This document shows, piece by piece, positions 2,576-23,710 of a stretch of DNA of 31,298 nt. The notes beneath the pieces were generated by a model. The model was given only the letters and a program-made list of their open reading frames with translations. It was not told the DNA's origin and did not search any database. The stretch is from a virus, in the IMG/VR virus record IMGVR_UViG_3300022818_000131, positions 1 through 31,298 of that record; one strand, given 5' to 3'. Position numbers and translations under genes: made by a program. Each line of letters starts with the position of its first letter. Positions within the stretch are counted from its first letter, which is position 1.

Positions 2576-2642
2576 TTATATCATTCTATAATTAACATAA
2601 TATTTTTTGATTGGCTATTCAAACTACGGAGCTTACCCCACA

Positions 2643-4049
2643 ATGAAACAGATAACAGTGAACGCTACCGATTCAAAAGGATTACAGACCGAAATTGATA
2701 AAAACGGTAGTAATCCGGCTGAATTCATTTTAAAAAACAACATGTTGATCAATTCCCTTGTCCGGTTTTATAATTTTGCGGATTTTAATGGGAACGGGAA
2801 AACGCTAACTTTGATGCCGGATGCACCAGTTAGCCCGTTCGGCGAACAAGTACCCATGATTGGGAGCAAAATCGGAACTGGTATAAACGGTCTCAAAATA
2901 CATGATATTATTTTTGAGGGAAACCGAGACCGTCAGTCTAAAGTACCAACTAACATCAGTCACGCAGGCGGGAATAAAAACTGGGGAATTGGTTATCATA
3001 ATTTTATAGGTATAGGAAACCTCAAAACGCCGGTTCCTGCGAATTCGTTGAATTGCGACTTCTATAACCTAACCTTTAATAATAATTTGGGCGATGGAAT
3101 CCGGATTGAAGGTGGGACTAATATTATAGTCCACGATATCAAAGGAAAACGTGGCGGTCATGACATTGTAAATTATGGTCATGTTTCGGGTGGAGAAATC
3201 TATAACGTAGATGTTGCTCTGGCTGTTAATGCCGGGGTGCGTGCCAGATCAGCTAAAAATATAAAAATCCATGACTGTAAAATAAACGGCGGTACAGGAC
3301 TTGCTTATTCTCCCGGTATACAAATCCAGGATCTTTCCTCCGACATTGATATTTACAATAATTATATTTATGGGACTTATGGTCCTGGTATCCAGATTGC
3401 ATGTTCAGTGCCTAATACTGGTTTGGTTACTGTCCGAAATAATTTAATCGTGTCATGCGGTCATATGCCAGCCAGTAATAAAATAGGCGGGGTTGGTGGA
3501 ATTGTTTTTGATGGGTTTAAGGTCGACATCAAAAACAATACGATTTCTGAAAGTTTGGGATATGGAATAAAAGTTGGACCTTATGACGTGAGTTCAACCT
3601 ACAAAAATAACGCCTCCATAAAAAACAATATCATAACTCTTACTAAACCCAGTTTAGCCCCCGGTTTAATGTCAGGCTGTGGAATTGCCGATTTAACTGG
3701 TGGACGATACACCGTTTCTGTGGATGGAAATTGCCAATATGGAAACAAAATGAATCATTATAAAGTAAATTATACAAATGGTATATCTGCTGATCCTCTT
3801 TTTATTGATCCGAAAAATGGAAATTACCACCTTCGGGCCGGCTCTCCTTGTGTGTCATCCGTCGGGGAAGTTGGTAGGTATTCCGGAACGTCAGAAGTTA
3901 CGAAAGGTCCATGTCCCGGAGTTACAATCTTCCGTGATTCAGAAGACGATTTGAGAGCTTATGTGAGAGCATTAAGAGACGCTGGGCACATCGAAGCCGG
4001 CGATGAAATAGAATTTGTCAATGTATCGGGTGGTTTTGAGGTTAATTGA
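2643..4049 (+). CDS. Right-handed parallel beta-helix protein (putative virion spike)
   Basis: The 468-aa protein has no signal peptide. From about residue 80 to 400 it shows the repeating pattern of PbH1/NosD beta-helix coils (LKIHDIIFEG, CDFYNLTFNNN, IKIHDCKINGG, IDIYNNYIYG, VTVRNNLIVS, VDIKNNTISES, ASIKNNIITL), and near the end the common closing segment DPLFIDPKNGNYHLRAGSPC. Such proteins bind or cleave polysaccharides in viral spikes. The absence of a signal peptide favours a virion component over a secreted host-type protein. The last 60 residues are acidic and non-repetitive. I chose ATG 2643 because GGAGCTT (2628-2634) lies 8 nt upstream; the ATG at 2607 would precede this site. No catalytic residues can be assigned. 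Confidence 0.78.
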   Translation: MKQITVNATDSKGLQTEIDKNGSNPAEFILKNNMLINSLVRFYNFADFNGNGKTLTLMPDAPVSPFGEQVPMIGSKIGTGINGLKIHDIIFEGNRDRQSKVPTNISHAGGNKNWGIGYHNFIGIGNLKTPVPANSLNCDFYNLTFNNNLGDGIRIEGGTNIIVHDIKGKRGGHDIVNYGHVSGGEIYNVDVALAVNAGVRARSAKNIKIHDCKINGGTGLAYSPGIQIQDLSSDIDIYNNYIYGTYGPGIQIACSVPNTGLVTVRNNLIVSCGHMPASNKIGGVGGIVFDGFKVDIKNNTISESLGYGIKVGPYDVSSTYKNNASIKNNIITLTKPSLAPGLMSGCGIADLTGGRYTVSVDGNCQYGNKMNHYKVNYTNGISADPLFIDPKNGNYHLRAGSPCVSSVGEVGRYSGTSEVTKGPCPGVTIFRDSEDDLRAYVRALRDAGHIEAGDEIEFVNVSGGFEVN

Positions 4050-5056: not shown

Positions 5057-6220
5057 ATGAAAAATATCATAGTATTACCCGGTCAATCCATTAATAATGC
5101 GATTACATCGGCGCAGTCAGGCGATACTGTTTCTCTTGGTTCTGGGACTTATCAACTATCGTCTGAAAAAGTCATAATGAAAAGCGGCATCCACCTGACG
5201 GGGGAAAGCGTCACTGACACTTTTATCAGAGCAGGACCAAACACAGGCGGTTCCGTTTCCGGCCAAACGTCCGATGGATGGATATACTGTATTGGACTGA
5301 ACGATATCGAGATAAGCAATCTCACGTTCACAAGCACTGCAAGCGGAACAAATGATGGAGGTAGGGGCGAGACTCGAAACTGTATTCTCTTGAAGGGATG
5401 CAGTAACGTCAAAATCCACGACAACAAAGTAATTAGGTATGTTTACAATGACTTTGTGAAATGTCACTCTGGAAACAATGTCCAAGTTTACAACAACTCC
5501 GGGCAATGCGGACATGATTTTGTAGAGTTTCTTACTGGAACGAAGAACAGCCGGGCCTATGGTAACAATATCATCGTCCAAACAAATACAGGTATCAGAT
5601 GTGATGGAGCTTCAAATATTGAACTAGATCACAATACACTGACTGGTGCTGGTGGTACGGGGTGGTGTCTGTTTGAGATGGAGAGTGCGCTCTCGAATAT
5701 TAATATCCACCATAACATTTGCCACGATTATAGGGGTTCATCCGGTAGTTATGTAGTTGCGCCGGTGCATGTATCTGGGTCTGTTAGTGTCCATGATAAT
5801 ATAATTTGGAATTGCGGATCGATTGCATACGGCACAATTACGAACAATACTATCAATCCAACGGATCGAAATATTGCCAATTGGGTAGCAAAAGGGTATG
5901 GTGCTGGATCGTTAGGGAGTATTGAGCCTCCTGTAGTAATACCCGTTGAACCTCCGGTAGTGCCTCCAGTTGTGCCCAAACCAGCTATAGTAACGGTTAC
6001 ATTCAGCGGTACGGGACCATTTGTATGTGCAGCGATAGGGAAGATCGCGAACAATGATCAGGTTATAATAAACAAGGCACTTATTTACGCAAAAGAGAAT
6101 AATTGTTTAGAAGTCCGATTAAACGGGCCTCATTCATATTATATAAGTTCGGGAATTATAAAACCAGATGGGGTGATGTTGTCCGGAGTTAAAGGCGCTC
6201 AGATAATTTGGAACTTCTGA
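5057..6220 (+). CDS. Right-handed beta-helix protein, C-terminally truncated relative of the surface protein at 7382
   Basis: The 387-aa protein lacks a signal peptide. Residues 1-280 form a pectate-lyase-like beta-helix (DTVSLGSGTYQLSSE, MKSGIHLTGE, NVKIHDNKVI, NIELDHNTLTG, NINIHHNICHD). This part is closely related to residues 30-310 of the protein at 7382-10204, including an identical 42-nt DNA run (5279-5320 and 7691-7732). A proline-valine linker follows (EPPVVPPVVPKP), then only the first coils of a second beta-helix before the stop, where the relative continues for 600 residues. GGAGCT at 5045-5050 precedes the ATG. It is probably a virion or spike protein, and its end looks cut. Confidence 0.78.
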   Translation: MKNIIVLPGQSINNAITSAQSGDTVSLGSGTYQLSSEKVIMKSGIHLTGESVTDTFIRAGPNTGGSVSGQTSDGWIYCIGLNDIEISNLTFTSTASGTNDGGRGETRNCILLKGCSNVKIHDNKVIRYVYNDFVKCHSGNNVQVYNNSGQCGHDFVEFLTGTKNSRAYGNNIIVQTNTGIRCDGASNIELDHNTLTGAGGTGWCLFEMESALSNINIHHNICHDYRGSSGSYVVAPVHVSGSVSVHDNIIWNCGSIAYGTITNNTINPTDRNIANWVAKGYGAGSLGSIEPPVVIPVEPPVVPPVVPKPAIVTVTFSGTGPFVCAAIGKIANNDQVIINKALIYAKENNCLEVRLNGPHSYYISSGIIKPDGVMLSGVKGAQIIWNF

Positions 6221-6306: not shown

Positions 6307-6461
6307 TGGATTTGATAGGACTTGCTGTAACTTTTCTAATATTGGCACTAGTTGCATATATATTGGGCGCTAGGGGATTTGCAGGTTTCTCTGTGGAAAT
6401 TGCGAGGTGGCTTGTCATAATCTTTGTTATACTTGCAATCCTCACGTTTTTCATCAGGTGA
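6303..6461 (+). CDS. DUF1328-like small two-helix membrane protein
   Basis: The frame encodes 52 aa with two hydrophobic helices (about residues 4-22 and 36-50) joined by a glycine-rich turn, [14 protein letters not shown]. The pattern F-L-I-x-A-L-x-A, then G-x-x-G-x-A-G, I-A and F-V-I-L is that of DUF1328 (YtjA-type) proteins, which are short membrane proteins of unknown function in bacteria and archaea. GGAGCTT at 6290-6296 lies 6 nt before the ATG. The gene directly precedes a cysteine peptidase gene, so a role with it in membrane or envelope disruption is possible but unproven. Confidence 0.72.
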
Positions 6462-6468
6462 TATTTCT

Positions 6469-7257
6469 ATGACCGCAAAACATACCTTCGGTTGGCTTCC
6501 GGATTTACCGGACGCAAGAGACTACATCTTCAAAACGGCTCGTATTGTTTCCTTACCTTCGTCTGTTGATCTGAGACGAGGATGCAGTGCAATTGAGGAT
6601 CAAGGCAATCTCGGATCTTGCACTAGCCAAGCAGTAGTGGGCGCCTTAGAATTCCTTGAACTCAAAGATGGAGTTACATTCTTTGATTTATCAAGGTTGT
6701 TTGTCTATTATAACACCCGTATCCTAGAACGAACTGTTAAATATGACTCGGGCGCCTCGTTAAGAAACACTGTGAAAGCAGTTGCGAAACAAGGTGTATG
6801 CACTGAAGTAATATACCCTTACATTGAAAAGAAATATAAATTAAAACCTGGTCCGGAATGTTATACTGATGGACTCAAACGAAGGGTCCTTGAGTATTCC
6901 AGGTTGCTCACTCTTCAAGACATGAAAGTTTCTCTTGCTGAAGGTTTTCCTTTTGTATGCGGAATCTCTCTCTATGAATCATTTGAATCTGAGAAAGTGG
7001 CAGAAACCGGGACTGTTAATATGCCCACTCGGAGAGAATCGATGATAGGCGGTCATGCGATTATGGTTTGTGGGTATGATGATAAAACGAGTCGATTTAT
7101 TGTCCGCAATTCATGGGGGACAGATTTTGGTATGGATGGGTACTTTACAATTCTATATAAATATATAACAACTTTAGGAGATGACTTTTGGCAGATAAAA
7201 AGAGGGAGTCAACTATCTCAAGTAAAAGTATCGGGACTAGCTTTCTCCTCAAAATGA
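6469..7257 (+). CDS. Papain-family (C1) cysteine peptidase
   Basis: The 262-aa protein carries the papain catalytic set: Q45 in EDQGNLGSC, nucleophile C51 in GSCTSQAVV, H196 in GGHAIMVCGYDD and N214 in VRNSWGTDFG. The N-terminus FGWLPDLPDARDY is typical of prokaryotic C1A peptidases. No signal peptide or propeptide is seen, so it works in the cytoplasm, in the virion, or outside after membrane opening. In a virus of a host with a protein S-layer it could cut the envelope during entry or release; capsid processing is less likely because a separate prohead protease exists. I chose ATG 6469, 8 nt after AGGTGA, in place of an ATG at 6424 that lies inside the previous gene. Confidence 0.9.
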   Translation: MTAKHTFGWLPDLPDARDYIFKTARIVSLPSSVDLRRGCSAIEDQGNLGSCTSQAVVGALEFLELKDGVTFFDLSRLFVYYNTRILERTVKYDSGASLRNTVKAVAKQGVCTEVIYPYIEKKYKLKPGPECYTDGLKRRVLEYSRLLTLQDMKVSLAEGFPFVCGISLYESFESEKVAETGTVNMPTRRESMIGGHAIMVCGYDDKTSRFIVRNSWGTDFGMDGYFTILYKYITTLGDDFWQIKRGSQLSQVKVSGLAFSSK

Positions 7258-7290: not shown

Positions 7291-7353
7291 AATCCAAATC
7301 GTGTATCTCGTCGTGTTTGCGTTTCCTATCACGCGGCGGGCGTAACAAATGTA

Positions 7354-7360
7354 TTTATAC
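7354..7360 (+). promoter_or_regulatory. TATA box placing a leaderless start at GTG 7382
   Basis: TTTATAC preceded by an A-rich BRE-like stretch lies inside the first codons of the longest possible frame (ATG 7349). Its centre is about 26 nt before GTG 7382, which is where transcription should begin. The transcript would thus be leaderless and the ATG at 7349 would not be transcribed. Confidence 0.5.
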
Positions 7361-7381
7361 GTACCGGTGTTATTTAATGGC

Positions 7382-10204
7382 GTGTTACGGAAACTCAACA
7401 GTCACGTTATTTCATCGTTTGTTTTCTTTATACTGCTCACCGGAGTGGCTAATGCTGCCACCCTTACCGTAAGTCCGGCGGGTGTCGGTAATGATGAGAA
7501 CGGAATTAACGATGCGATTAACATGGCTCAGCCTGGTGACACCGTTTTACTGAAGTCTGGCACATATCAACTAACTGAACGAATCACTATGAAAAGTGGT
7601 ATCCACTTACGGGGTGAAAGTGCCACTAACACTATTCTCAGAGCTGGACCGAATACCGGGGGGTCCGTCTCTGGTAAAACCACCGATGGGTGGATATACT
7701 GTATTGGACTGAACGATATCGAGATAAGCAATATTGCCTTCACGAGTTCAGCAAGCAGTACAAAGGACGGCGGTCTAGGAGAGACTCGAAACTGTATTCT
7801 CCTTAGGGGATGTACAAATGTCAAAATCCACGACAACGAAGTCATTAAGTATGTTTACAATGACTTTGTAAAGTGCCACGCCGGGGATAATATACAAGTG
7901 TACGATAATTCCGGGCAGTGTGGGCATGATTTCGTAGAGTTTCTTTCAGAAACGAAAAACAGTCGGGCCTATGGTAACAATATCGTCGTTCAGACCAACA
8001 CCGGTATCAGGTGCGACGGAGCTTCGAACATCGAACTCGATCACAATACCCTTACGGGCGCGGGCGGGACTGGCTGGTGCCTCATGGAGATGGAAAACTC
8101 ACTCTCAAATATAAACATACATCACAATATAATGCATGACTACCATGGGTCATCCAATAGTTATGCTGTTGCTCCGGTGACCGTTTCTGGTTCAGTTAGT
8201 GTCAATAATAATGTTCTGTGGAATGTCGGATCAATCGCTTATGGCACAACTAAGGATAATAATATCGACCCATCAGACCGCAGTATTTCATCATGGGTAG
8301 CAAAAGGATATGGCGCGGGATCATCCGGTACTGTAGCCCCATCACTCATACCTCCTGCTGTACCGCAAGTTGTGACCACACCACCCATAGTAACTACTCC
8401 CTCGCCCGAGCTCGCTGGCGGTACAATGGTTTATCCAACTGGTTCAAAATCAGATCAAACGGTAATAAATAACGCGCTTGAAGGGAGGGGGAAAGTATAC
8501 CTGAACGCGGGAACTTATACAATTGATAATACGATTGTTATAGGGTCGAATACAATCTTAACAGGTTCGCCGGACGCCGTTATTTTAGTTTCCCCCTCAT
8601 CTTCTCAATGGTTTACAGGTTCAGTAGGTATTATTTCCTCTAAAGAATCAATCAAAAATGTTGAGATTTCAGGTTTTAAGATCAATGGAAATCTTGGCAA
8701 TCTTCCTGCAGGTTATGCAAATTCACCAGGTCATGATAAGGACTGCGAACGTGGTATATTCATCGGTGGCTACTCAAATGACTATGCCGATAATATCAAA
8801 ATACATGATATGCAGGTATATGATTGTTTTTCTGACGGAATTAATATAAGGTTTGCAAAGAACGTAGCAGTTTATAATAATTTTATTTCAAATACGCAAC
8901 ACGAGGGTATATTTTGGTCGGTTGTTGTAGGTGGAGAAATCTATAATAATAAAATTGCAGGAATAACAAGCGATTGCATAAGGCTTGATAACTCAATTAA
9001 CTGTAAAGTTTATGACAATGTGTTATTCTCATACGATGGCGATAATACAAACGGAGCGTATAAACATGGTGAAAATGGCATGCAAGTAGGTAATGCGGGT
9101 TCTTCTCATGGTTACGACGCATCGAAAAAACCAACCGTAACAACCAATATTGAGATATCAAATAATACCTTTGCCAACAATGGTTTAAAAGCCATCATGC
9201 TAGGCTCGGGCTCGGGCAATAATGTTTTTGTTCATGATAATAAATTCATAGGTGTTGCTGAACTCAAAACAATGGGTATTCCAGTTGTTGGAAATACTGT
9301 TGAAAATGTTTCGGTTGAGAATCCACCGACAAAAGAAATGTCAGAGAAGATCTTCGGATCTATCTTTGATATTCTGAACATCAATTTCCAGGATTCAGCC
9401 ATCACTAACCAGCCCGATGACCAGATACAGTATTCTGTGCAGAAAACAACTTCCGGAAACATAGCTGGCGGGGTAAAGATCGTCGGTTTTAGAAACACGA
9501 TCGTGATTGACAATACAACCTACATGCAGAACACAAACTCAACCATTACGAAATCAGAAGCAGTCATTGCCCAGCCCCTTGACTTTTGGAATCAGGGTAA
9601 TGATAAAGTAGAGAAGACCGTAGACGTTAATGTAGAGAATGGGACCGCAACAGCTATACTAACTGTAAAAGTGAGGCACTATAAGACATCTTTCTCAAAG
9701 CAGACGAATAAAATGAAAGGGTCTTATTCAACCTCAACTGCAACCTTTACCGATACTGCAAAGGCCCCGAGCGTCTATCCTGCGCCGGGGAACATCTCCG
9801 GTATGATAAACGTTTATCCTACATATTTCGAAGTATATGTGCCTCAGACGGGGCTTGTAAAGATCGAGTATGCGTATGGCAACAATACTACCGAACATCG
9901 TTTCCTTGCTGGTGAGCGAACAAATAAGGACGGTATAGACTATACGGTGTACTCTAAGATGGAGGACTGGACTGCTGGGCTTGGTCACGTCGGGGACTGG
10001 GCCAGGGTATACGGTAAGTTCGACAACAGCAAATTAAATGTAACTGCTAGTACCCCCTACGAGGATATCCACATATCAAGTTTCAAGATCAAAAATAATG
10101 GCGAGATCGCGGAACCTATTGCTTTCTGGTTTTATCCGACAATATGTTTTCTAGTTGCTTTATATTTACTCGGAAGGTACTTTTGGCGTAGGATTTGGTA
10201 CTAA
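7382..10204 (+). CDS. Large cell-surface protein: signal peptide, two beta-helix domains, C-terminal membrane anchor
   Basis: From GTG 7382 the protein has 940 aa. A signal peptide comes first (positive LRKLNSH, then SSFVFFILLTGVANA). A first beta-helix (about 30-310) is closely related to the protein at 5057-6220. A proline-threonine linker (about 320-345) leads to a second NosD-like beta-helix (about 350-640), then a beta-sandwich-like region rich in Thr and Asn with many N-glycosylation sequons (about 650-910). A single transmembrane helix (FWFYPTICFLVALYLLGRYF) and a positive tail end the protein. It should be anchored in the membrane and exposed outside, as an adhesin or receptor-binding protein. 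It directly precedes the secretion-like operon and may be its surface partner. ATG 7349 is the alternative start, argued against by the TATA box within it. Confidence 0.8.
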   Translation: MLRKLNSHVISSFVFFILLTGVANAATLTVSPAGVGNDENGINDAINMAQPGDTVLLKSGTYQLTERITMKSGIHLRGESATNTILRAGPNTGGSVSGKTTDGWIYCIGLNDIEISNIAFTSSASSTKDGGLGETRNCILLRGCTNVKIHDNEVIKYVYNDFVKCHAGDNIQVYDNSGQCGHDFVEFLSETKNSRAYGNNIVVQTNTGIRCDGASNIELDHNTLTGAGGTGWCLMEMENSLSNINIHHNIMHDYHGSSNSYAVAPVTVSGSVSVNNNVLWNVGSIAYGTTKDNNIDPSDRSISSWVAKGYGAGSSGTVAPSLIPPAVPQVVTTPPIVTTPSPELAGGTMVYPTGSKSDQTVINNALEGRGKVYLNAGTYTIDNTIVIGSNTILTGSPDAVILVSPSSSQWFTGSVGIISSKESIKNVEISGFKINGNLGNLPAGYANSPGHDKDCERGIFIGGYSNDYADNIKIHDMQVYDCFSDGINIRFAKNVAVYNNFISNTQHEGIFWSVVVGGEIYNNKIAGITSDCIRLDNSINCKVYDNVLFSYDGDNTNGAYKHGENGMQVGNAGSSHGYDASKKPTVTTNIEISNNTFANNGLKAIMLGSGSGNNVFVHDNKFIGVAELKTMGIPVVGNTVENVSVENPPTKEMSEKIFGSIFDILNINFQDSAITNQPDDQIQYSVQKTTSGNIAGGVKIVGFRNTIVIDNTTYMQNTNSTITKSEAVIAQPLDFWNQGNDKVEKTVDVNVENGTATAILTVKVRHYKTSFSKQTNKMKGSYSTSTATFTDTAKAPSVYPAPGNISGMINVYPTYFEVYVPQTGLVKIEYAYGNNTTEHRFLAGERTNKDGIDYTVYSKMEDWTAGLGHVGDWARVYGKFDNSKLNVTASTPYEDIHISSFKIKNNGEIAEPIAFWFYPTICFLVALYLLGRYFWRRIWY

Positions 10205-10292
10205 TTCGCCCCCGCCCGTTTCTCTTTTGCCGTGGTTTTGTTTCGCTTGTCCCGTTGATGTCAAATATGGCGGGTGGTAACTCCACAACCTA

Positions 10293-10299
10293 TTTATAC
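10293..10299 (+). promoter_or_regulatory. TATA box of the secretion-like operon
   Basis: TTTATAC lies in the 165-nt gap after the surface protein gene, 70 nt before the pilin-like gene. Transcription would start near 10322. T-rich pyrimidine tracts at 10214-10253 could end the upstream transcript. GGGGG at 10356-10360 is the only ribosome-site candidate before ATG 10370. Confidence 0.5.
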
Positions 10300-10369
10300 A
10301 ACTGCTGTGTGATATAGCAGTAGCAAATACAACATAACCTCAACATAAACTCAATGGGGGTTTTAAAAC

Positions 10370-10753
10370 ATGATGATGAAACAAATAATCAAGACAGCAA
10401 AACAAACTATCCTTACAGTATTATCGACAACCTTGCTAGCGACGCCAACGTTGGCGGCAATTGATTACGGAAAGTTCTTCAACCCTGAACAGGCAGTGGG
10501 GAAGGTCGCAAGCTCTCCAATTGGGGCGGCCCTTGTAAGCATCCTCGAGCTTGTCGTGGGTATAGTCGTTATTGGAGGAGTACTAGCCCTCATTGTATCC
10601 TTCTTAAAATTCATATTTGGGCTCAAGACCGGATCTGGTGACTCCGCCTCTGATGGGTATAAGGGGATGGGTAGTATAGCCCTCGGTGGTCTCATCCTTG
10701 TGATCTGTATTTCGATGTTTTTTTATTTCCTCGAATACAAACCCACACCTTGA
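10370..10753 (+). CDS. VirB2/TrbC-like (CedA1-like) pilin subunit, putative
   Basis: The 127-aa protein has a signal peptide (KQIIKTAKQTILTVLSTTLL, cleavage probably after PTLA at 29), a short exposed part (FFNPEQAVGKVASSPIG), and two transmembrane helices at about 55-80 and 100-122 joined by a small polar loop with SGDSASDGYKG. This size and two-helix layout is that of VirB2/TrbC conjugative pilins and of the CedA1/TedC pilins of archaeal DNA import systems. It is first in an operon with a polytopic membrane protein and a VirB4-like ATPase, the same company that VirB2 keeps. Sequence identity to known pilins cannot be judged here, so the family assignment rests on topology and context. Confidence 0.65.
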   Translation: MMMKQIIKTAKQTILTVLSTTLLATPTLAAIDYGKFFNPEQAVGKVASSPIGAALVSILELVVGIVVIGGVLALIVSFLKFIFGLKTGSGDSASDGYKGMGSIALGGLILVICISMFFYFLEYKPTP

Positions 10754-10762
10754 GGTAGAGGC

Positions 10763-11785
10763 ATGAAACACTCTACACTCGCCCTTTTTTTATTCATCTT
10801 GTTGATCTGTCAGCCGACAATGGTTCATACTGCCAACGCTGGCGCACTTGATAACGGAATAGACATGGTCGCGCAGGGAATAGGAAAATATGCACAGCTA
10901 AAGGCAGAAGAGATGTTGAGTGGAAATTTCGGTGTTACATTTGCGAATACCAGCGAGATGGAAAATTATGCCCCCTCTCAGAAATTAGTTTATATGGTTG
11001 CGACAGCCTCACAAAATCCATTTGAGCTGGAATGGGTTCAACATACATTCGCTACTGAACTGGTTTGGTATATAATAATAGGAGTGCTGATAATCGTAAT
11101 CATAGGAGGGCTAAATATTATACAGAAAGCCTTCCCAGAGGAGATGTCCGGCACTTATCAGATGTTTACAGGGCATGAGGGCTTTTTCGATTATACAGCA
11201 ACTCTGAAAACGACTCTGAAACTGGGTATAATGCCACTATTGGCACTACCAATAATTGAGGCACTACTTACGTTGGAACAGGTAATATCATCGGGCCTGA
11301 CCATGGAGTCACTGCAGTTCATTAATACCCCATCAACTAGTACAGGTGGGATCTGGATGTTTGAGGCGCTAGCATATGCTTGCTGCGGCTGGCTGTTCGG
11401 TATCCGGATTGAATACATAAACATGTTCGCAGCACACATCCTGATAATAATTCTCCTGCTCTGTATTTCATGGTCATTTTCGAAGTATCTGGGTGAGATG
11501 TTAATTGCTTGGTTCATATCAGCACTGGCAATGCGCCCTATACTGCTTTGGCTCTCTGCGTGGGCGGTCGAGAACATCGCTAGGCAGCCGAATGAGATGA
11601 TGAAAATTGTTGTAACCAATGGTGTTATGACAGTAGTTGTAATCGGATCTTTTATAATCGCACTTGTCCTGGTGCTTTGGCCTGTTGTTATGTTGGTCAT
11701 CAAAGTGATTTCTGATTACCTACTCGGAACGGGATATAAAATAATTAAAATCTCAAATCAACTGAAAATGATAAGGGGGAAATAA
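10763..11785 (+). CDS. VirB6/TrbL/CedA-like polytopic membrane protein, putative
   Basis: The 340-aa protein has an N-terminal signal sequence (LALFLFILLICQPTMVHTANA), a soluble segment of about 60 residues, then about six hydrophobic helices: near 98-118 (WYIIIGVLIIVIIGGLNII), 150-165, 200-215, 222-240, 245-265 and 290-320. An extended N-terminal exterior part followed by five or more helices is the shape of VirB6/TrbL and of CedA, the channel components in conjugation and Ced systems. GAGG precedes the ATG, and the gene starts 10 nt after the pilin gene. It probably forms the inner-membrane conduit with the pilin and ATPase. Confidence 0.62.
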   Translation: MKHSTLALFLFILLICQPTMVHTANAGALDNGIDMVAQGIGKYAQLKAEEMLSGNFGVTFANTSEMENYAPSQKLVYMVATASQNPFELEWVQHTFATELVWYIIIGVLIIVIIGGLNIIQKAFPEEMSGTYQMFTGHEGFFDYTATLKTTLKLGIMPLLALPIIEALLTLEQVISSGLTMESLQFINTPSTSTGGIWMFEALAYACCGWLFGIRIEYINMFAAHILIIILLLCISWSFSKYLGEMLIAWFISALAMRPILLWLSAWAVENIARQPNEMMKIVVTNGVMTVVVIGSFIIALVLVLWPVVMLVIKVISDYLLGTGYKIIKISNQLKMIRGK

Positions 11786-11788
11786 ACA

Positions 11789-12637
11789 ATGTCGACCGCT
11801 GCCACGTCAGGGAATCGAAACTTTGACCCAACAGTACTAGGGCTACATCAAAATCAACAATTTTTATTATTTATTCTTATATTCCCGCTTATGGGATGTT
11901 TCGTGCTTAGCATATTTACACTCGGGTCTCATCTTGGCGTTTATGTATCAATCGGCTTCGGCTTTCTTGAACTGTTGTTTTTCCTAGCCGTAGGAAGAAA
12001 CACCGCCTCCCTATATCATTTTGAAAGAAACTTGAGGTTTATGTGGTCAGTGCATCTGGGAACCGACTACATAAATAAATATGGGCATCACGGGATACAG
12101 AAGGCTCGAAGCCTGACTCACATAAAAAAAGTTCATAAAGGTGGCTATATTGAGTACTTTTTTGACCGGGACAGACCACACAATTGGGGCGGAATAATCC
12201 ACCTAAATACTTTCACCCCCGATGATCTTGAGGCTTTCAAAGCCAACGTGGAAAGGATGTGCGTTGGCCTTCCGGATCATTCGATAATAAAAACCACGCT
12301 GAAAGTGAGATCTGATCTGACAGATCACGCCGAGTCCATCAGAAAGGAGCTTGGTAAGGAGGGTCTGCCTCAAATCATCCGTGAATCAATGGACGAACAC
12401 CGTATCATGTGCGAACTCGCTAACGAGAAATCCTACGAGAATCATATGCTAGTGTTACTCTCATACAATGCGTCCCCCGAAGGCGCAATGCATAAATTAG
12501 ATATCATGATTCAGACAATTACCGAAATATTGGAAGGTATGAAAATCGGGTGCACGAGACTGGAAACTCCAGAAGCAATTGAAGATATGTTCTATGGTGA
12601 TATTACTTTTAACGTACATGGATTAAGGAGACTTTAA
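11789..12637 (+). CDS. VirB3-like membrane segment fused to a VirB4 N-terminal-like domain
   Basis: The 282-aa protein has two adjacent hydrophobic helices at about 26-70 (FLLFILIFPLMGCFVLSIF and YVSIGFGFLELLFFLAV), as in VirB3/PrgI proteins. A soluble domain follows that resembles the N-terminal part of VirB4/TraC ATPases (VKVHL-type opening at HLNTFTPDDLEAF, then LVLLSYNASPEGAMHKLD, ILEGMKIGCTRLETPEAIEDMFYG). It has no P-loop. In single-chain VirB3-VirB4 proteins this region is followed directly by the ATPase domain; here it stops and a 59-aa minigene carrying the start of a P-loop domain follows after one base. GGGGGAAATAAACA precedes the ATG, 4 nt after the previous stop. Confidence 0.6.
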   Translation: MSTAATSGNRNFDPTVLGLHQNQQFLLFILIFPLMGCFVLSIFTLGSHLGVYVSIGFGFLELLFFLAVGRNTASLYHFERNLRFMWSVHLGTDYINKYGHHGIQKARSLTHIKKVHKGGYIEYFFDRDRPHNWGGIIHLNTFTPDDLEAFKANVERMCVGLPDHSIIKTTLKVRSDLTDHAESIRKELGKEGLPQIIRESMDEHRIMCELANEKSYENHMLVLLSYNASPEGAMHKLDIMIQTITEILEGMKIGCTRLETPEAIEDMFYGDITFNVHGLRRL

Positions 12638-12638
12638 C

Positions 12639-12818
12639 ATGGCAAACCAACAATATAGATCACACACAACACAGAACCTAGACACCGAGGGTATCTTAAT
12701 CGGATACGCGACGCGTGATGAAAACGCAGGAACTCCAATATTTTTGAATCTTGACGACTCTAAATATCGGAGTAAGCATCTGGCCATATTCGGTGGCAGT
12801 GGATCAGGCATGGATTGA
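12639..12818 (+). CDS. 59-aa P-loop minigene (truncated copy of the VirB4 Walker A region)
   Basis: ATG 12639 follows a strong AAGGAG site and opens a frame that stops at TGA 12816-12818. After 12 unrelated residues it reads LDTEGILIGYA, then GTPIF-L-N-L-DDSKY and SKHLAIFGGSGSG, matching the segment before and through the Walker A loop of the next gene, then ends with MD where the ATPase has KST. It therefore lacks the P-loop lysine and cannot bind nucleotide normally. It begins one base after the preceding stop. It may be a decayed end of an earlier VirB4 copy, a regulatory microprotein, or a recombination template. The frame and ribosome site are intact, so translation is likely. Confidence 0.6.
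   Translation: MANQQYRSHTTQNLDTEGILIGYATRDENAGTPIFLNLDDSKYRSKHLAIFGGSGSGMD
12672..12808 (+). repeat. Direct repeat, copy 1 (P-loop region of the minigene)
   Basis: This 137-bp stretch aligns without gaps to 13621-13757. By hand I count about 15 mismatches, close to 89% identity. Both copies are read in the frame of their own gene, and the similarity ends exactly inside the Walker A codons. Confidence 0.85.
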
Positions 12819-12831
12819 GGAGACAAAAAAC

Positions 12832-15462
12832 ATGGCACAACCGTCATACAAACAACACACCGACGATCGTAGATTAAGAACACATATGACACGCAAGGTA
12901 AGCAACGCCGTAAAAGGGATAGTGTTCCGTTCAAAAATATGGTGGGAGACTTTCAGAGATTTTGAATACGAGAGACTCTTAGAGGCAGAGGCTGCTTTCC
13001 TGGCTTGCCCCTCCTCTATTGAGTCAACGGATAACGGCAACTTCTTGAGAATAAATGGGACTCGCCTGTCCCAATTATTTTATATTGCGTCACCGTCTAA
13101 AATCGACCCTGCCGAAAGTGGAATACGGAAAAATGCTGATCCATTTGTCCTTGACAAGATCATGGAAGTTACGGACGACAAGAATATAGATCTGACCCTG
13201 ACTCAAGTAATCTATAAGATGTCAAGTTTGGAAGGGAGTCAGGAAACTGACCGTGAACTCTCAAAAATGGATTGGATTAAAGACACTGAGGTTAAAACAT
13301 CAGGCAGGTACTCGCGGAGAATAGATCACTATACCGCAGACATCGAGGAGTTTAGTAAGCAATCGTATGACGGTACGCACAGACAAGTTAAACAACTTCT
13401 CATCGCCCGAGTAGACGGTGACGACGAGCAGAAAGTTGAATTCCACAGTACTCACCTACAGATGATACTTCGTGGACATGGGGTCCTTACCGAAGTTCCG
13501 AAGGGTGGTCAGCTTGAAGCACTGAGGTCAAGCCTGATGTCGAATGATATCGTCAAGGGCGCTGTCCTTAAAACAATGTCCGATGTAGCAGCTGCGATGT
13601 GGCCAGGAAGAAACCCAATGCAGAGCCTAGACACCGAGGGTATCCTAATCGGATATGCGAAGCATGGTGAAAACGCAGGAACTCCTATCTTTTGGAATCC
13701 TGACGATTCTAAATATATGAGTAAGCATCTTGCCATATTCGGCGGCAGTGGATCAGGGAAAAGCACGCTACAACTTTACATTGATTACAACGCCGTGCTT
13801 GCAGGCTGTGACTTTATACATATATTCCCTAAAGAAGACATGGGAACTTCCGCCCTCCGGATGATAGAGGCCATTGATGGGCAATTAATAAAGATTGGGG
13901 AGAATGGACAGAACTTCAACCCACTCATGGTCAGTTATAATCCCGAAACACATGGGAAGGAAATCATGGACCGAAAAAAAGCGTATATTAGACACAAAGA
14001 ATCTGTTGCGAACTTCGTTAATATCATCATTGGCGAATCATTTTCATCCTCAATGTCCGGGGTCTTCAAGAGATCCCTCTCCGACCTGTACGAGAAGGCG
14101 GGGTTTGTGGATAAGAACGCAACCCCGATCAACGTTGAGCAGTGGGATGACGGTAAAAAATGGCCGTCACTTGGCGATCTCGTGGACAAATGGGAAGTAT
14201 GGGTTACAGACGACGCTAAGAAAAAAGACAGGACTACCCTTAAGGCCTTGATTAACCACTTGACCGATATCAAGCAAGGAGAGTCCCTTAACTGGTTAGA
14301 TAACCACGAGTCATTTAATCCATCTGGGCGTTTTATCTGTATCGACGTCTCCGACCTGAAAGATAATAAGAGATATCAGGATGCAGTAACCGTCCTGCTG
14401 GTGGACATTATTAACACTCGGCTAAAATCACCCAATATGGAGGCTCACCGGAAGAAGAACCGAACGATTGTTATGCTCGATGAAGGAGCTAATCTCCTCG
14501 AAAATCCTGGTATGGAGAGGTATATCAAACGTTGGTTCAGGGAAGCAAGGGCCGGAAAGTGTAGTATCATTCTGGATAATCAGGATACACTCGGCGTAAA
14601 ACACATCCTGCCGATCTTGAAGTCAAACACCGATGCAACCATATTCATGTGTAATATGTCCTCTGAAAACATTTCTGAATTTGAAAAAGATTATCATTTT
14701 TCGGTGAAAGATAAAAACTATCTAATGGAACCCCCAGATGGAGATATTCGGAAGTTTCTGTTTGTGATGAATGGATTTAAGATCAAAGGTAGGGTCATCC
14801 TGAGTAATACACAGTCCAAAGTTTTCTTTGACCAGGATATCGAAATACCACTATCAGGCGAGAGCTATATGAAATGCGGGTATGAGCTATTAGACGGGCT
14901 CGAGTGGATCAGAGACAAAGGTATAATGTCAGATGATTGGATCTCTGGGATGAGGGACTCAGACATACCAGGGTGGACTAGAGTAACAAGGTTAACTCCT
15001 CCTGTGGTTGGCATGTCGAAGGTAATTTGGTTTAGAAACGATATCGCAAAATCAAGTAAGATCAGTGGAGAATCGCCCGACCACTATGCGACCTGTTATC
15101 TGCTTGCAGGAGAATTAATCAGGATCGGTTGCACGAACGTATGTGTTAATAATTGGGGTGGCCAGGGCAAAGAAGATGCAGATGTTACCTGTGTTACTCC
15201 GGATGGACGACGGCTATGGATTGAATATGAGCATCCGAACTCCCATAGAGAGTTAAAGATAGCAGATAAGAAGACTAAACAAATGCGATTCTGTGACGTG
15301 TGGCGCTGTATCTGCCAACAAAAGAACGAGCCGGTAGTCAAAAAGGCCGTTGGAGACGACTTTTATATGGTCAGAGGAGATGCAGTCAAAAACTTCCTCA
15401 TCTCGCTCTCTTCCTCTAATCAGATGAGATATGAGGGAGCGAGCCAGCCAACAGAGGCCTAA
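12832..15462 (+). CDS. VirB4/TraC/HerA-type conjugation ATPase with possible nuclease-like C-terminal domain
   Basis: From ATG 12832 (GAGGAG about 9 nt upstream) the protein has 876 aa; an earlier ATG at 12751 lies inside the minigene. Residues 1-260 resemble a VirB4 N-terminal domain. The motor domain has Walker A GGSGSGKST at 304-312 and Walker B TIVMLDEGANL with D550-E551, followed by WFREARAGKCSIILDNQ, where VirB4 proteins carry their sensor and finger residues. After residue 760 there is a separate domain with DADVTCVTPDGRRLWIEYE: D784, then E798-x-E800, a spacing like PD-(D/E)xK folds but without the usual lysine. The enzyme should power assembly or transport at the membrane with the three upstream products. 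Lack of transmembrane helices fits VirB4. HerA-type packaging is the alternative reading. Confidence 0.85.
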   Translation: MAQPSYKQHTDDRRLRTHMTRKVSNAVKGIVFRSKIWWETFRDFEYERLLEAEAAFLACPSSIESTDNGNFLRINGTRLSQLFYIASPSKIDPAESGIRKNADPFVLDKIMEVTDDKNIDLTLTQVIYKMSSLEGSQETDRELSKMDWIKDTEVKTSGRYSRRIDHYTADIEEFSKQSYDGTHRQVKQLLIARVDGDDEQKVEFHSTHLQMILRGHGVLTEVPKGGQLEALRSSLMSNDIVKGAVLKTMSDVAAAMWPGRNPMQSLDTEGILIGYAKHGENAGTPIFWNPDDSKYMSKHLAIFGGSGSGKSTLQLYIDYNAVLAGCDFIHIFPKEDMGTSALRMIEAIDGQLIKIGENGQNFNPLMVSYNPETHGKEIMDRKKAYIRHKESVANFVNIIIGESFSSSMSGVFKRSLSDLYEKAGFVDKNATPINVEQWDDGKKWPSLGDLVDKWEVWVTDDAKKKDRTTLKALINHLTDIKQGESLNWLDNHESFNPSGRFICIDVSDLKDNKRYQDAVTVLLVDIINTRLKSPNMEAHRKKNRTIVMLDEGANLLENPGMERYIKRWFREARAGKCSIILDNQDTLGVKHILPILKSNTDATIFMCNMSSENISEFEKDYHFSVKDKNYLMEPPDGDIRKFLFVMNGFKIKGRVILSNTQSKVFFDQDIEIPLSGESYMKCGYELLDGLEWIRDKGIMSDDWISGMRDSDIPGWTRVTRLTPPVVGMSKVIWFRNDIAKSSKISGESPDHYATCYLLAGELIRIGCTNVCVNNWGGQGKEDADVTCVTPDGRRLWIEYEHPNSHRELKIADKKTKQMRFCDVWRCICQQKNEPVVKKAVGDDFYMVRGDAVKNFLISLSSSNQMRYEGASQPTEA
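13621..13757 (+). repeat. Direct repeat, copy 2 (P-loop region of the ATPase gene)
   Basis: This is the full-length counterpart of 12672-12808, offset by 949 bp. Here the reading continues through GKST into an intact ATPase. Confidence 0.85.
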
Positions 15463-15627: not shown

Positions 15628-16008
15628 GTGATTTTCATCAAACGTATTGTAAAATATGACGATTCAACCGCTTTTGGTAAATTTTACGTTTTGGATCTCG
15701 ATGTGTGGGCAGAAACCGAACACCACATAACAAGTGACACACGTTTGGGCATCGGCAGAGACACCGCCGGAGCAGAAACGGCAATTTTTATTCAAGTCGG
15801 GCAAGATGGCGAGACTTTTAAAGTACCTGACGAAAACGGAAGAGAGTTCCTGTTTTTTAATCGTCGGGATTGGATCGAATTGAGAAAAACAAAAGGGGCT
15901 GATAAATATAAGCCAATGTTTGTAAGTGAAAACGGGACCATTTGGATTGGAAAAAGTTTCAAAGGTTGTAACTTCCGTGTATTTACGAAACTGGAGGGAG
16001 TCGAATGA
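15628..16008 (+). CDS. Hypothetical protein, 126 aa
   Basis: I do not recognise a family. The protein is beta-rich with no membrane helix or signal peptide; features include FGKFYVLDLDVWAET, AETAIFIQVGQ, FLFFNRRDWIELR and a C-terminal FRVFTKLEG. The start is GTG 15628, supported by the TATA box 28 nt upstream; AAGAAGG just before it could also act as a ribosome site. Its stop overlaps the next start (ATGA at 16005-16008). It opens a small-gene cluster that may represent accessory or regulatory functions. Confidence 0.7.
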   Translation: MIFIKRIVKYDDSTAFGKFYVLDLDVWAETEHHITSDTRLGIGRDTAGAETAIFIQVGQDGETFKVPDENGREFLFFNRRDWIELRKTKGADKYKPMFVSENGTIWIGKSFKGCNFRVFTKLEGVE

Positions 16009-16481
16009 ACATAATTGATTCGGTAAAACGAGGAAAGATAACACACATGACCATAATCACAGTGCTGGCGATCCTCACGATTGGAGTAGCCACGGCGGTT
16101 TATAGTAACGACCCTGCGTTTCTCAATCGCCACGCAGAAACTCAAATCGTGGATGAAAATCCTTTGATGACAACGTTATCCTCCGACGAACAAGATACAC
16201 TATTCCGAGATCAGCGACTGGATGAAGCACAGGGTGTCGATAACATTGTAAATAACGTGTTAAGTGGAGCAGTAAAGCCGGGAAATGGAATTGATAGACT
16301 TGTCATGATCAGACTTTATGCAAGAAGTGACATTGACCTTTCACCCGAGGACACTGTAACTAACCTCAGATATATCGATTTCGTGATGTCTTCCCAGGAC
16401 GTTATTAACTCTTATATGTATAAAACCGGAAACGTTGACGAGATGCGAGTCTTAACCAAAGAAAAAAGAGATAAAATTTAA
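16005..16481 (+). CDS. Single-pass membrane protein, unknown
   Basis: The 158-aa protein has one hydrophobic segment at about 17-33 (TIITVLAILTIGVATAVY), followed by an acidic, mostly helical domain (SSDEQDTLFRDQRLDEAQG, DLSPEDTVTNLRYIDFVM). With positive residues before the helix the large part is probably outside. GGAGGG lies upstream, and the start overlaps the previous stop as ATGA. No family is recognised. Confidence 0.68.
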   Translation: MNIIDSVKRGKITHMTIITVLAILTIGVATAVYSNDPAFLNRHAETQIVDENPLMTTLSSDEQDTLFRDQRLDEAQGVDNIVNNVLSGAVKPGNGIDRLVMIRLYARSDIDLSPEDTVTNLRYIDFVMSSQDVINSYMYKTGNVDEMRVLTKEKRDKI

Positions 16482-17785: not shown

Positions 17786-18508
17786 TTAAATTTTAATTTT
17801 TGGTTTTTCATATCCCCTTTCTTTTTCTGTATAGTCTGGAGACCAGTTGTCTTTTACTATATAACACGACATATAGCACCTGCAATTTATTTCCCCCAAA
17901 CTTGGAAATTCTTTGATTTTATATACTCTGTGATTTCTCTCAACGTGTTTAGGGCGAACTCTGCTGTCTTCCATCGTATGCCATTGTACCATTTCAAGTT
18001 TGCCATAAGTCCATAACTTTCTTGTAGCCTCGTCTTGCTGTACCCTCGTTTCACAGAACGCAGCGTTTTTAGCCCTTACATTTTTACCAAACGATTCTAT
18101 CTTTCCTAATTCCTCTTTTATTTTTGCAGACGACCAACTTTCAGTTTTTGATTTATCAAAGATCTCTTTTAACTGTATTTTGGTTTTGGTGGTTAGATCA
18201 TTTAGCCATGGATTAAAGGACTTGATATCATCCTCGACCACCATGGAACCACCTTTTTCTTTCAGCATCTTCTCGTAACTCTTCACTGCTGCGCTGGACC
18301 ACTTGACCATTGTGGATAGTTTAATAGATACCGGCTTTAATTTGGCAGCACTACGCGCCTTATTCAAATCACCTAGAGCCGTTATCGAACTCGCAATCCG
18401 GACGGATAGAGCAGAATGGATCAGTGATGCAATATATACGGCTACAAGGACGGCTACAGCTTCATCAATATTTGAGTTATCTTCGGTTTGCACTTCATTC
18501 GGGGTCAT
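17786..18508 (-). CDS. Phage Mu F-like head morphogenesis protein
   Basis: The 240-aa protein has a hydrophobic stretch near the N-terminus (DEAVAVLVAVYIASLIHSAL) and a C-terminal Mu-F/SPP1 gp7 domain (Phage_Mu_F). The signature runs WHTMEDSRVRPKHVERNHRV, then EFPSLGEINCRCYMSCY, with the D, R, H and NCRC residues that are conserved in this family. These minor head proteins act with the portal in head assembly. I chose ATG 18508, whose upstream AGGTGG fits; a GTG at 18520 is possible. The ATG overlaps the stop of the 29-aa gene (ATGA), which in turn overlaps portal, so the three should be translated in sequence. Confidence 0.88.
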   Translation of the reverse strand: MTPNEVQTEDNSNIDEAVAVLVAVYIASLIHSALSVRIASSITALGDLNKARSAAKLKPVSIKLSTMVKWSSAAVKSYEKMLKEKGGSMVVEDDIKSFNPWLNDLTTKTKIQLKEIFDKSKTESWSSAKIKEELGKIESFGKNVRAKNAAFCETRVQQDEATRKLWTYGKLEMVQWHTMEDSRVRPKHVERNHRVYKIKEFPSLGEINCRCYMSCYIVKDNWSPDYTEKERGYEKPKIKI

Positions 18509-18594
18509 GCAGGCGACCACCTGCTAAACATCAGATAGACAATGAGTATCAGTAGAACTATTAAAACAATGTCAAACGTGTCTGGGAATCCCAT
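18505..18594 (-). CDS. 29-aa single-helix membrane microprotein between portal and head morphogenesis genes
   Basis: The ATG at 18594 overlaps the portal stop (TAATG) and its TGA overlaps the next start (ATGA). After MGFPDTFD comes one transmembrane helix (IVLIVLLILIVYLMF) and a short SRWSPA tail. The perfect overlaps at both ends and the clean membrane helix make it a credible gene that is too short for normal gene finders. Its position suggests a head- or portal-associated membrane role, but no homologue is known to me. Confidence 0.6.
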   Translation of the reverse strand: MGFPDTFDIVLIVLLILIVYLMFSRWSPA

Positions 18595-20099
18595 TACAAT
18601 CCCTTCTCAACTGCTTTAATAAGATCTTCCCATCCCCCGCTTAACTCACTTTCTAATTTCTGAACTGATTCATCAAACGACGGTGGTTCCCCCTGATTTT
18701 GTTTGACATCTTGCTGGACTTCTTCTTCTGTCATTTGTTTGTCTTGTGGGTTCGGGTTAGGCTCTGGCAGTTGTGGAGTTACTGGAGTTACTGAAAAAGT
18801 ACTGGGTTGAATAACGTTAGATCTCAAAGTCTCAAACTTCTCTTTTGCCTTCAATAAATATTCAATGTCAGCATTTTCCAACCCGAAATATTCTCTTATT
18901 TCGTCAGGATCAGCAAGTACAACACCATTTACAGCAAAGGCATCAATCAGTTTTGAACCTTTTTGAAAATCCAGGTCTTGGTTTTTCAGTTTCAATCCTA
19001 TGATATTAACATCCGAACGAAGATCCGTATACCCATTCCATGCCAGCATATCATTTATCATTGTATCAAGATACTCTTTTATGGGGCGCTGAAGACCGGC
19101 GATAAAAGATTGCAGTAGTTCATTTTCTCCAGCAGTTGACCCACCGAGTTTATTTTCACCACCCGTCGATAAAAAGTCAGCCGGTGAATACGTTTCTAAT
19201 ATCCATTTTCGCCAATCTTCCATGGTTTTTAGAGTGTTTCCTGACGCAGTGCCTTCAACTTCGACCGGTTCTACATTATACGGTAGTCCGAAAAACTGAT
19301 TTCTGGAGACTGATTTGAGAACACTTTGTATATATTGCCACACGTTTTGAGTATTGTCTGGCATTAAATTATTTTTATCAGTATGCCTCAAAAACCAAAT
19401 GTTTTCACGGTTTATATTTTGTTTTAATGCGAGTCTTCCAAATTCATAATCGGGAAGTTGTTTATAAACCGGTGTTAAAAGAGGTATCCCGTCAATATAA
19501 GCTGTGTTTTTTGGGGATTTTATATGTTCACAGTTTATAATTTCTTCGGGGATACCTATTATATTATTATATTGATAAAAATGAGTGCTCCCGTCTTGAA
19601 ATCTGACAATACCTTTGAGGTATTTACCGTATGCATTATACGGAGAAGTTACAAATGGCATTTTTGTGAATGTCTCACAGGGCAAAACTCGCAACTCTGT
19701 AATAACATACTGGCCGTCTGCATTCTGCCCAATGCCCTTTGACTGTATGAAGTCCCCCCACTCGAACCACTCGTGAAGCATGCTTGAGATATGATTAAAC
19801 ATTGCGAGAGGGCTGAAAACTTCCCTTACCCATTCGGCTACGTCTTCTCTAGCTCCACCTTTCTGGTCAGCAATATTATAAACAATCTTTTCTAAGACCA
19901 TATTTGTAATATTGTCCTTAATTTTGTCCGAGAGTGGATGATCTTTAAATTTTTCGATTTCTTCAATTGTTAGTTTTTCATCATCCCATCGGTTTTCCTG
20001 GTCGAAATAATCATACATGTAATTCTGCCCTTCGGCTTTAGTATTATTTGGGATAGTTTCAGCCGGAGGGGTCTTTTTGCCAAAGCTCCAAAGTTTCAT
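18594..20099 (-). CDS. Portal protein
   Basis: The 501-aa protein shows the layout of phage portal proteins: helical N-terminal domain (NMVLEKIVYNIADQKG), the clip/stem region, FLRHTDKNNLM, the wing region with the conserved TYSPADFLSTGGENK stretch, and a long helix near IAGLQRPIKEYLDTMINDML followed by the crown (ADPDEIREYFGLENADIEYLL). The last 70 residues are Pro/Gln-rich and low complexity. A dodecameric portal is the DNA gate at the capsid vertex and the partner of TerL. It starts at ATG 20099 with no ribosome site; the TATA box at 20121-20133 is about 28 nt upstream, fitting a leaderless message. It is transcribed away from the capsid operon. Confidence 0.88.
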   Translation of the reverse strand: MKLWSFGKKTPPAETIPNNTKAEGQNYMYDYFDQENRWDDEKLTIEEIEKFKDHPLSDKIKDNITNMVLEKIVYNIADQKGGAREDVAEWVREVFSPLAMFNHISSMLHEWFEWGDFIQSKGIGQNADGQYVITELRVLPCETFTKMPFVTSPYNAYGKYLKGIVRFQDGSTHFYQYNNIIGIPEEIINCEHIKSPKNTAYIDGIPLLTPVYKQLPDYEFGRLALKQNINRENIWFLRHTDKNNLMPDNTQNVWQYIQSVLKSVSRNQFFGLPYNVEPVEVEGTASGNTLKTMEDWRKWILETYSPADFLSTGGENKLGGSTAGENELLQSFIAGLQRPIKEYLDTMINDMLAWNGYTDLRSDVNIIGLKLKNQDLDFQKGSKLIDAFAVNGVVLADPDEIREYFGLENADIEYLLKAKEKFETLRSNVIQPSTFSVTPVTPQLPEPNPNPQDKQMTEEEVQQDVKQNQGEPPSFDESVQKLESELSGGWEDLIKAVEKGL

Positions 20100-23663: not shown

Positions 23664-23710
23664 GGGAAACCTGGTGTTTACGGCATGGATTTTGGACAAC
23701 GGTGACCCTC

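Follow-up and report, generated by a model that had tools for sequence, protein, structure and literature searches.

To our knowledge, conjugation machines have been regarded as a property of plasmids and of integrative and conjugative elements (ICEs), and Ced and Ted as domesticated, cellular versions of such machines. Ced and Ted are made of a pilin, a VirB6-like and a VirB4-like part (PMC9905601). The archaeal conjugative plasmids pNOB8 and pT33-3 carry homologs of VirB4 and VirD4, and no relaxase has been recognised in them (PMC12857230). The locus described here lies in a virus record of IMG/VR, IMGVR_UViG_3300022818_000131 (31,298 bases; this whole stretch, possibly a fragment, is called the window). 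A sequence-only reading had singled out four consecutive open reading frames (ORFs) of the window, between 10370 and 15462, as a compact DNA-transfer operon. We regard it as highly probable that these genes encode an apparatus of the type IV secretion system (T4SS) type; whether its cargo is DNA is close to an even call. The interpretation that we favour, somewhat above an even chance, is that the virus encodes a minimal T4SS-type translocon or pilus, which would be placed in the host membrane and would serve cell contact and probably DNA movement. The grounds for a T4SS include the following: the fourth gene is a VirB4 by family and fold, and the second and third have VirB6 and the VirB4 N-terminal domain (VirB4N) as their best fold matches; the order of pilin candidate, polytopic protein, transmembrane (TM)/VirB4N protein and VirB4 resembles that of monoderm conjugation loci such as those of Pontibacillus and of a Lactococcus plasmid; and the viral VirB4 shows profile matches to VirB4 of haloarchaeal plasmids and Firmicutes.

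Membership of the ATPase (12832-15462, plus strand) in the VirB4 family is certain by sequence and by fold. The best NCBIfam model is NF045975, the Mbov_0397 ICE ATPase (2.2e-25), and TIGR00929 also matches (4.5e-20), both scores being under the full-length cut-offs of the models. Walker A (GGSGSGKS) and Walker B (MLDEG) motifs are present. When the predicted structure was compared with known folds, the best Foldseek match was R388 VirB4 (2.2e-16), with top matches extending over 620-720 columns, and the best VIA match was Thermoanaerobacter VirB4 4ag5 (Z 35.3 over 361 residues); DndH (Z 28) and HerA (Z 24) came lower. The model used had a mean predicted local distance difference test score (pLDDT) of 55.5, and its ATPase core was mostly at 55-85. 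The VirB4 assignment of the sequence-only reading is thus upheld, with one correction: the most likely start is the ATG at 12832, behind GAGGAG at 12817-12822, instead of the TTG at 12751.

The C-terminal region of this VirB4 (about 215 aa, residues about 660-878; 14806-15462) is present in all cassette lineages, with invariant E, H, G and E residues. Pfam scans of the region returned no family, and the AlphaFold model falls there below pLDDT 50. A PD-(D/E)XK-like pattern (D ... ExE) was seen by eye, and is to be taken as a guess, not as a result. A conjecture is that the region could be a substrate loader.

The first three genes of the operon were folded as one read-through chain with stops read as Gly, a procedure that possibly lowered the quality of the model (mean pLDDT 51.9). 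In addition, VIA matches with Z below 8, or below about 13 in the case of helical proteins, may be due to chance. The second gene (10763-11785, plus strand) encodes a polytopic membrane protein of 340 aa whose three best matches in the PDB are R388 TrwI/VirB6 chains: 7o3v_G (Z 10.4), 8rtd_L (Z 9.9) and 8rt9_F (Z 9.5), over 222-232 residues. Comparison with the sequence of R388 TrwI verified that the three entries contain this protein. Superposition on 7o3v_G covered 232 of 261 residues with a root-mean-square deviation (rmsd) of 4.0; most of this part has a pLDDT of about 50-78. The next-ranked match was a designed repeat protein (Z 7.3, rmsd 9.4), so that TrwI leads by 2 to 3 Z units.

The third gene (11789-12637, plus strand, 282 aa) combines a candidate VirB3-like membrane segment with a soluble domain. 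The latter was matched to residues 15-242 of R388 TrwK/VirB4 (VIA Z 7.1-7.3, rmsd 9-10), and Foldseek gave a probability of 0.6-0.8 to the VirB4 N-terminal domain. TrsD has been described as a remote homolog of the N-terminal portion of VirB4 (PMC12102498), and the product of the third gene looks like a small TM protein and a TrsD-type protein fused. Because two separate parts of the chain pick the same machine, we accept as likely that the second protein is VirB6-like and the third VirB4N-like, on predicted fold matches of modest strength. The structure prediction that had been proposed as a check of the operon returned a VirB4, a VirB6 and a VirB4 N-terminal domain as best matches of the respective parts.

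The first gene (10370-10753, plus strand) encodes a protein of 127 aa with a signal segment and two TM helices, VirB2/CedA1-like by topology. Its match to Pfam TrbC is weak (E 0.55), and its place in the operon is kept in all the records that carry the cassette (see below). Topology and position hint weakly at a VirB2-type pilin.

Comparison with described loci was made part by part. With hhalign, the viral VirB4 was paired with VirB4 of a haloarchaeal plasmid at 98.9% (489 columns) and with those of Pontibacillus and Lactococcus at about 98%, the plasmid comparisons spanning 370-489 columns. In the Lactococcus and Pontibacillus plasmid loci, VirB4 stands in a row with a pilin-like or CagC gene and with genes for a small TM protein and for a protein of the TrsD type, in that order before it. 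Monoderm T4SS of the MPF-FATA type (TrsC/TrsD/TrsE, PrgI; Mycoplasma ICE Mbov_0397) resemble the viral block in that a pilin-like gene lies early in the locus, VirB4 is directly preceded by a protein of the VirB4N type, and VirB4 itself gives a profile match. In contrast, the viral block has no recognised VirD4 or relaxase, joins TM segment and VirB4N domain in one protein, has a short VirB6-like protein (340 aa) and a beta-helix partner, and is carried by a head-tailed virus. Haloarchaeal plasmid loci (Haloplanus pCBA1113-01) share the VirB4 match and a VirB4N-like protein directly upstream of VirB4; however, they are plasmid-borne, their polytopic protein is downstream and of 600 aa or more, no pilin is recognised in them, and VirB4 is the only viral part with a profile match.

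Ced (Sulfolobales) and Ted (Thermoproteales) are likened to the viral block by their list of parts, namely pilin, VirB6-like channel and VirB4-like ATPase (PMC9905601), but they are cellular systems of Thermoproteota. The one Ced model to appear against the viral VirB4 was that of CedD, with an E of 0.07. In its list of parts the viral block is closer to Ced and Ted; its VirB4 sequence is matched to plasmid and ICE types. Plasmids pNOB8 and pT33-3 share with the window an archaeal VirB4-type ATPase and no recognisable relaxase; they differ in having VirD4-like proteins, and VirB4 and VirD4 homologs are all that is named there (PMC12857230). VirB4-like folds, likened by fold alone, are also found in BFVD for bacterial tailed phages, specifically Bacillus phages G and JL and 'Siphoviridae sp. 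ctHip2' (entries S5MSQ0, G3MBM1, G3MBM2 and A0A8S5RV31). A virus-borne VirB4 as such thus has a precedent in a few bacterial tailed phages, and the surprise is a conserved block of several genes. No description of a viral T4SS cassette was found among open-licence papers.

A scan of viral contigs for VirB4 detected two near relatives at 90-92% (L002 in record G002 and L003 in G001). Four distant relatives came from records reached via terminase and capsid relatives (G008, G009, G010 and G022), and one further relative (G033) from a scan with a widened alignment. With the window, eight IMG/VR records, all of them possibly incomplete, carry the operon that the sequence-only reading had suggested searching for in related viruses; a terminase is present in six of the seven found besides the window. 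VirB4 identity among the eight is 22-92%. The four ORFs initially reported lie on one strand, collinear and tightly spaced; they are found at 78-94% protein identity in two virus contigs, and a further five contain them in the same order at 13-41%. Such conservation indicates that they are coding and not chance ORFs. Tail-tube proteins were detected in five cassette-bearing records, and a tape-measure protein also in G001. Elsewhere, two VirB4s found no tblastn match among 50,697 phage records, and scans for VirB4 and for DUF1699 in the genomes of 84,980 species gave no confirmed relative, these scans being based on short peptide patterns and constituting weak evidence of absence.

What is conserved is larger than the four genes. 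Order and strand are kept in the eight records for a block of seven: an anchored beta-helix protein, the pilin candidate, the VirB6-like protein, the TM/VirB4N-like protein, VirB4, a small soluble protein and a small single-TM protein (in record G002, a fragment of 14.8 kb, the first gene is truncated). Hence, the upstream gene at 7349-10204 and the downstream stretch at 15628-16481 travel with the operon, whose four ORFs are present as reported and whose limits are wider.

The distribution of the block among virus backbones was also examined. The terminases belong to three families, between which BLAST detects little or no similarity: A (window, G008, G009, G010; 63-76%), B (G001, G022; 70%) and C (G033; 24% to G022 over 215 aa). 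One VirB4 clade (window, G001, G002; 91-92% alike) spans families A and B, and another (G008, G022, G033; 68-77% alike) spans A, B and C. The window and G001 have in common the block together with beta-helix, peptidase and DUF1699 neighbours in partly changed order, and differ in their terminase and capsid proteins. Since the VirB4 clades cut across the three terminase families, these identity groupings are most simply read as movement of the cassette, along with some of its neighbours, from one virus backbone to another. A block that is kept over strong divergence and appears to be exchanged in this manner is probably selected as a unit.

The first gene of the block (7349-10204, plus strand) encodes a right-handed beta-helix, pectate-lyase-like protein (PF12708, 2.2e-6; PF13229, 2.5e-6) with an N-terminal signal segment and a C-terminal TM anchor (hydrophobic segments near residues 16 and 920). 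An equivalent is found at the same upstream position in seven records; in G010 the C-terminal segment is below the TM threshold used. Within the window, two beta-helix genes share a stretch of 0.8 kb (7505-8322 and 5090-5910) that is 77% identical, which is a duplication or gene conversion inside one virus. Behind the beta-helix gene, about 70 bases before the start of the pilin candidate, lies a promoter-like element of the archaeal TATA type, AACTCCACAA-n-CTATTTATACA (10279-10300, plus strand). In agreement with the single promoter proposed for the operon, the CTATTTATACA element is invariant in the window, G001 and G002 although the intergenic DNA around it has drifted. At the other end, the small soluble protein (15628-16008, plus strand) is a constant neighbour, with a homologous or positional equivalent in the eight records, and the single-TM protein that closes the block (16005-16481, plus strand) has a same-position equivalent in all of them. 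No effector gene is conserved together with the block.

A mini-ORF of 59 codons (12639-12818, plus strand) sits between the third gene and VirB4. It is a partial duplicate of the VirB4 stretch that precedes Walker A (89% DNA identity between 12672-12808 and 13621-13757), ends in GGSGSGMD and stops short of the Walker A lysine. G001 has a mini-ORF at the equivalent place (L003 9995-10153) and G002 has none. Both mini-ORFs remain open and share residues unlike those of the parent (LNL, KYRSKH). A diversity-generating retroelement was considered as a source of this self-repeat. Synonymous and non-synonymous codon differences between the window and G001 are 8:5 in the mini-ORFs and 10:1 in the parent stretch.

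The carrier is a head-tailed virus (Caudoviricetes), with a terminase and an HK97-type capsid protein in the window and tail genes in relatives. Specifically, the window contains a large terminase gene at 551-1867 (PHROG 2, 8e-48) and a capsid gene at 22140-23108 (PHROG 1650, 1.5e-8; Phage_capsid_4 of Pfam, 2.9e-6), and a series of secreted and membrane genes lies between terminase and head genes. Tail genes were not recognised in the window itself, but a relative that shares its capsid protein does have them. The operon had been located between terminase and portal; the terminase was confirmed, and neither PHROG nor Pfam gave a match for the ORF taken as portal (18594-20099, minus strand). 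As this ORF adjoins a gene for a Mu-F-like head protein (17786-18520, minus strand), its portal identity is plausible but unproven. The two genes (17786-20099) are inverted with respect to the other head genes of the window, and their counterparts in a capsid relative (L012) share the strand of the capsid gene.

Several products may act at the cell surface. GDSL/SGNH hydrolase domains are encoded at 23702-25636 (3e-17) and 28564-30462 (7.3e-25), likely in surface proteins, and the latter gene, for an SGNH-hydrolase/repeat protein, has short repeats with 60-base spacing at 29952-30143. A disaggregatase-related protein is encoded at 2607-4049 (1.9e-20), and another in G001; together with the hydrolases it suggests an attack on host surface polysaccharide. 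Near the cassette, a papain-like C1 peptidase gene (6424-7257, 6.1e-17) has a 72% relative in G001. DUF1699, present in five of the eight cassette records, was detected among 14 control genomes in Methanosarcina acetivorans only. The occurrence of DUF1699 and disaggregatase-related proteins in the records makes Methanosarcinales, which are methane-producing archaea, likely hosts and lends indirect support to the euryarchaeal host that had been proposed.

How might such an apparatus work? The virus would assemble it in the cytoplasmic membrane of the infected cell, presumably a member of the Methanosarcinales. VirB4 would be the motor and the VirB6-like protein the membrane channel, to which the VirB3/TrsD-like protein would dock the motor; sequence or fold supports these three roles. 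The complex may polymerise the secreted two-helix protein into a short pilus or stalk. Wall hydrolases open the cell coat for bacterial conjugation machines, and here the membrane-anchored beta-helix protein, as an enzyme or an adhesin, might open or grip the polysaccharide or S-layer coat. The resulting structure would connect the infected cell with one beside it, most likely for the passage of viral or plasmid-like DNA. As no coupling ATPase or relaxase was recognised, loading of the substrate would need another route: the VirB4 C-terminal region, host HerA-type ATPases or the use of unnicked double-stranded DNA may be considered.

Certain observations weigh against this interpretation. Searches of the eight records, which may be fragments, for VirD4 (PF02534, PF12696) found no match besides VirB4 itself, and the relaxase family searched, PF03432, was likewise absent; matches to PF01935 fall within VirB4 only. 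The lack of recognised VirD4 and relaxase proteins noted for the window extends therefore, for the families searched, to all the records. The sequence-only reading had taken it to favour import or an appendage over full conjugation, which may or may not hold: relaxases go unrecognised in archaeal conjugative plasmids too (PMC12857230), but those plasmids have a VirD4 homolog, and none is seen here. Profile-profile comparison of the pilin candidate, the VirB6-like and the VirB4N-like proteins with their plasmid counterparts gave no probability above 2%. With mean pLDDT values of 55.5 and 51.9, confidence in the two models is low to middling, and a Z of 10 for a helical protein is in the range where chance arrangements occur.

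A tentative, rather doubtful extension of the transfer hypothesis is spread independent of virions: pilus and channel would carry the genome out of the infected cell, across the polysaccharide coat and directly into an adjacent cell, and the VirB4 C-terminal region would replace the coupling protein. It is unlikely, in our view, that the cassette makes a surface appendage or remodels the envelope without transporting DNA, either as a pilus for adhesion between host cells or as a late aid to exit or entry that acts with the beta-helix protein, the small membrane proteins and the papain-like peptidase. The location is suggestive, as the cassette lies in a late/structural region beside beta-helix, disaggregatase-related, small TM and C1 peptidase genes, and the beta-helix gene is its constant partner; the complete VirB4 motor that is retained here, together with a VirB6-like channel and a docking protein of the VirB4N kind, exceeds, however, the needs of a simple adhesin.

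Somewhat less credible is DNA import in the manner of Ced and Ted, whereby infected cells, while producing virus, would take up DNA from neighbours or from the medium and use it in repair, in recombination or as a source of nucleotides. The shared part list (PMC9905601) and the failure to recognise a coupling protein or relaxase in the eight records are in line with import. Against it, Ced and Ted belong to cells of Thermoproteota, no sequence link was seen beyond the marginal CedD score, and there is no visible reason for a tailed virus to need DNA import.

VirB4/HerA-family ATPases also occur in defence systems, and the viral VirB4 matches mads_8 of PADLOC (4.2e-16) and HerA defence complexes (Z 20-23). 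Superinfection exclusion or warfare between elements, in which the complex would block or kill competing elements or neighbour cells, seems nevertheless improbable, since the fold clearly fits VirB4 itself better (Z 35), the genes around it encode T4SS-like parts that are secreted or sit in the membrane, and the block has no conserved effector gene. Finally, VirB4 relatives are otherwise known from plasmids, but the idea that an assembly error, or a single recent insertion, attached part of a conjugative plasmid or ICE to virus contigs was rejected as highly improbable: the block recurs with collinear neighbours in eight separate virus records (seven with terminase, five with tail-tube protein) over a wide VirB4 divergence, in support of the virus-borne nature first proposed.

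If the interpretation of the cassette as a virus-encoded translocon or pilus is right, its presence in tailed viruses with three terminase families would place a T4SS-type machine under viral selection. It would also provide a minimal T4SS in a euryarchaeal setting, a link between the virus and plasmid modes of spread, and a testable case of a T4SS role without a recognised coupling protein or relaxase. Our observations suggest that viruses have taken over a type of machine that plasmids use for the movement of DNA from cell to cell.

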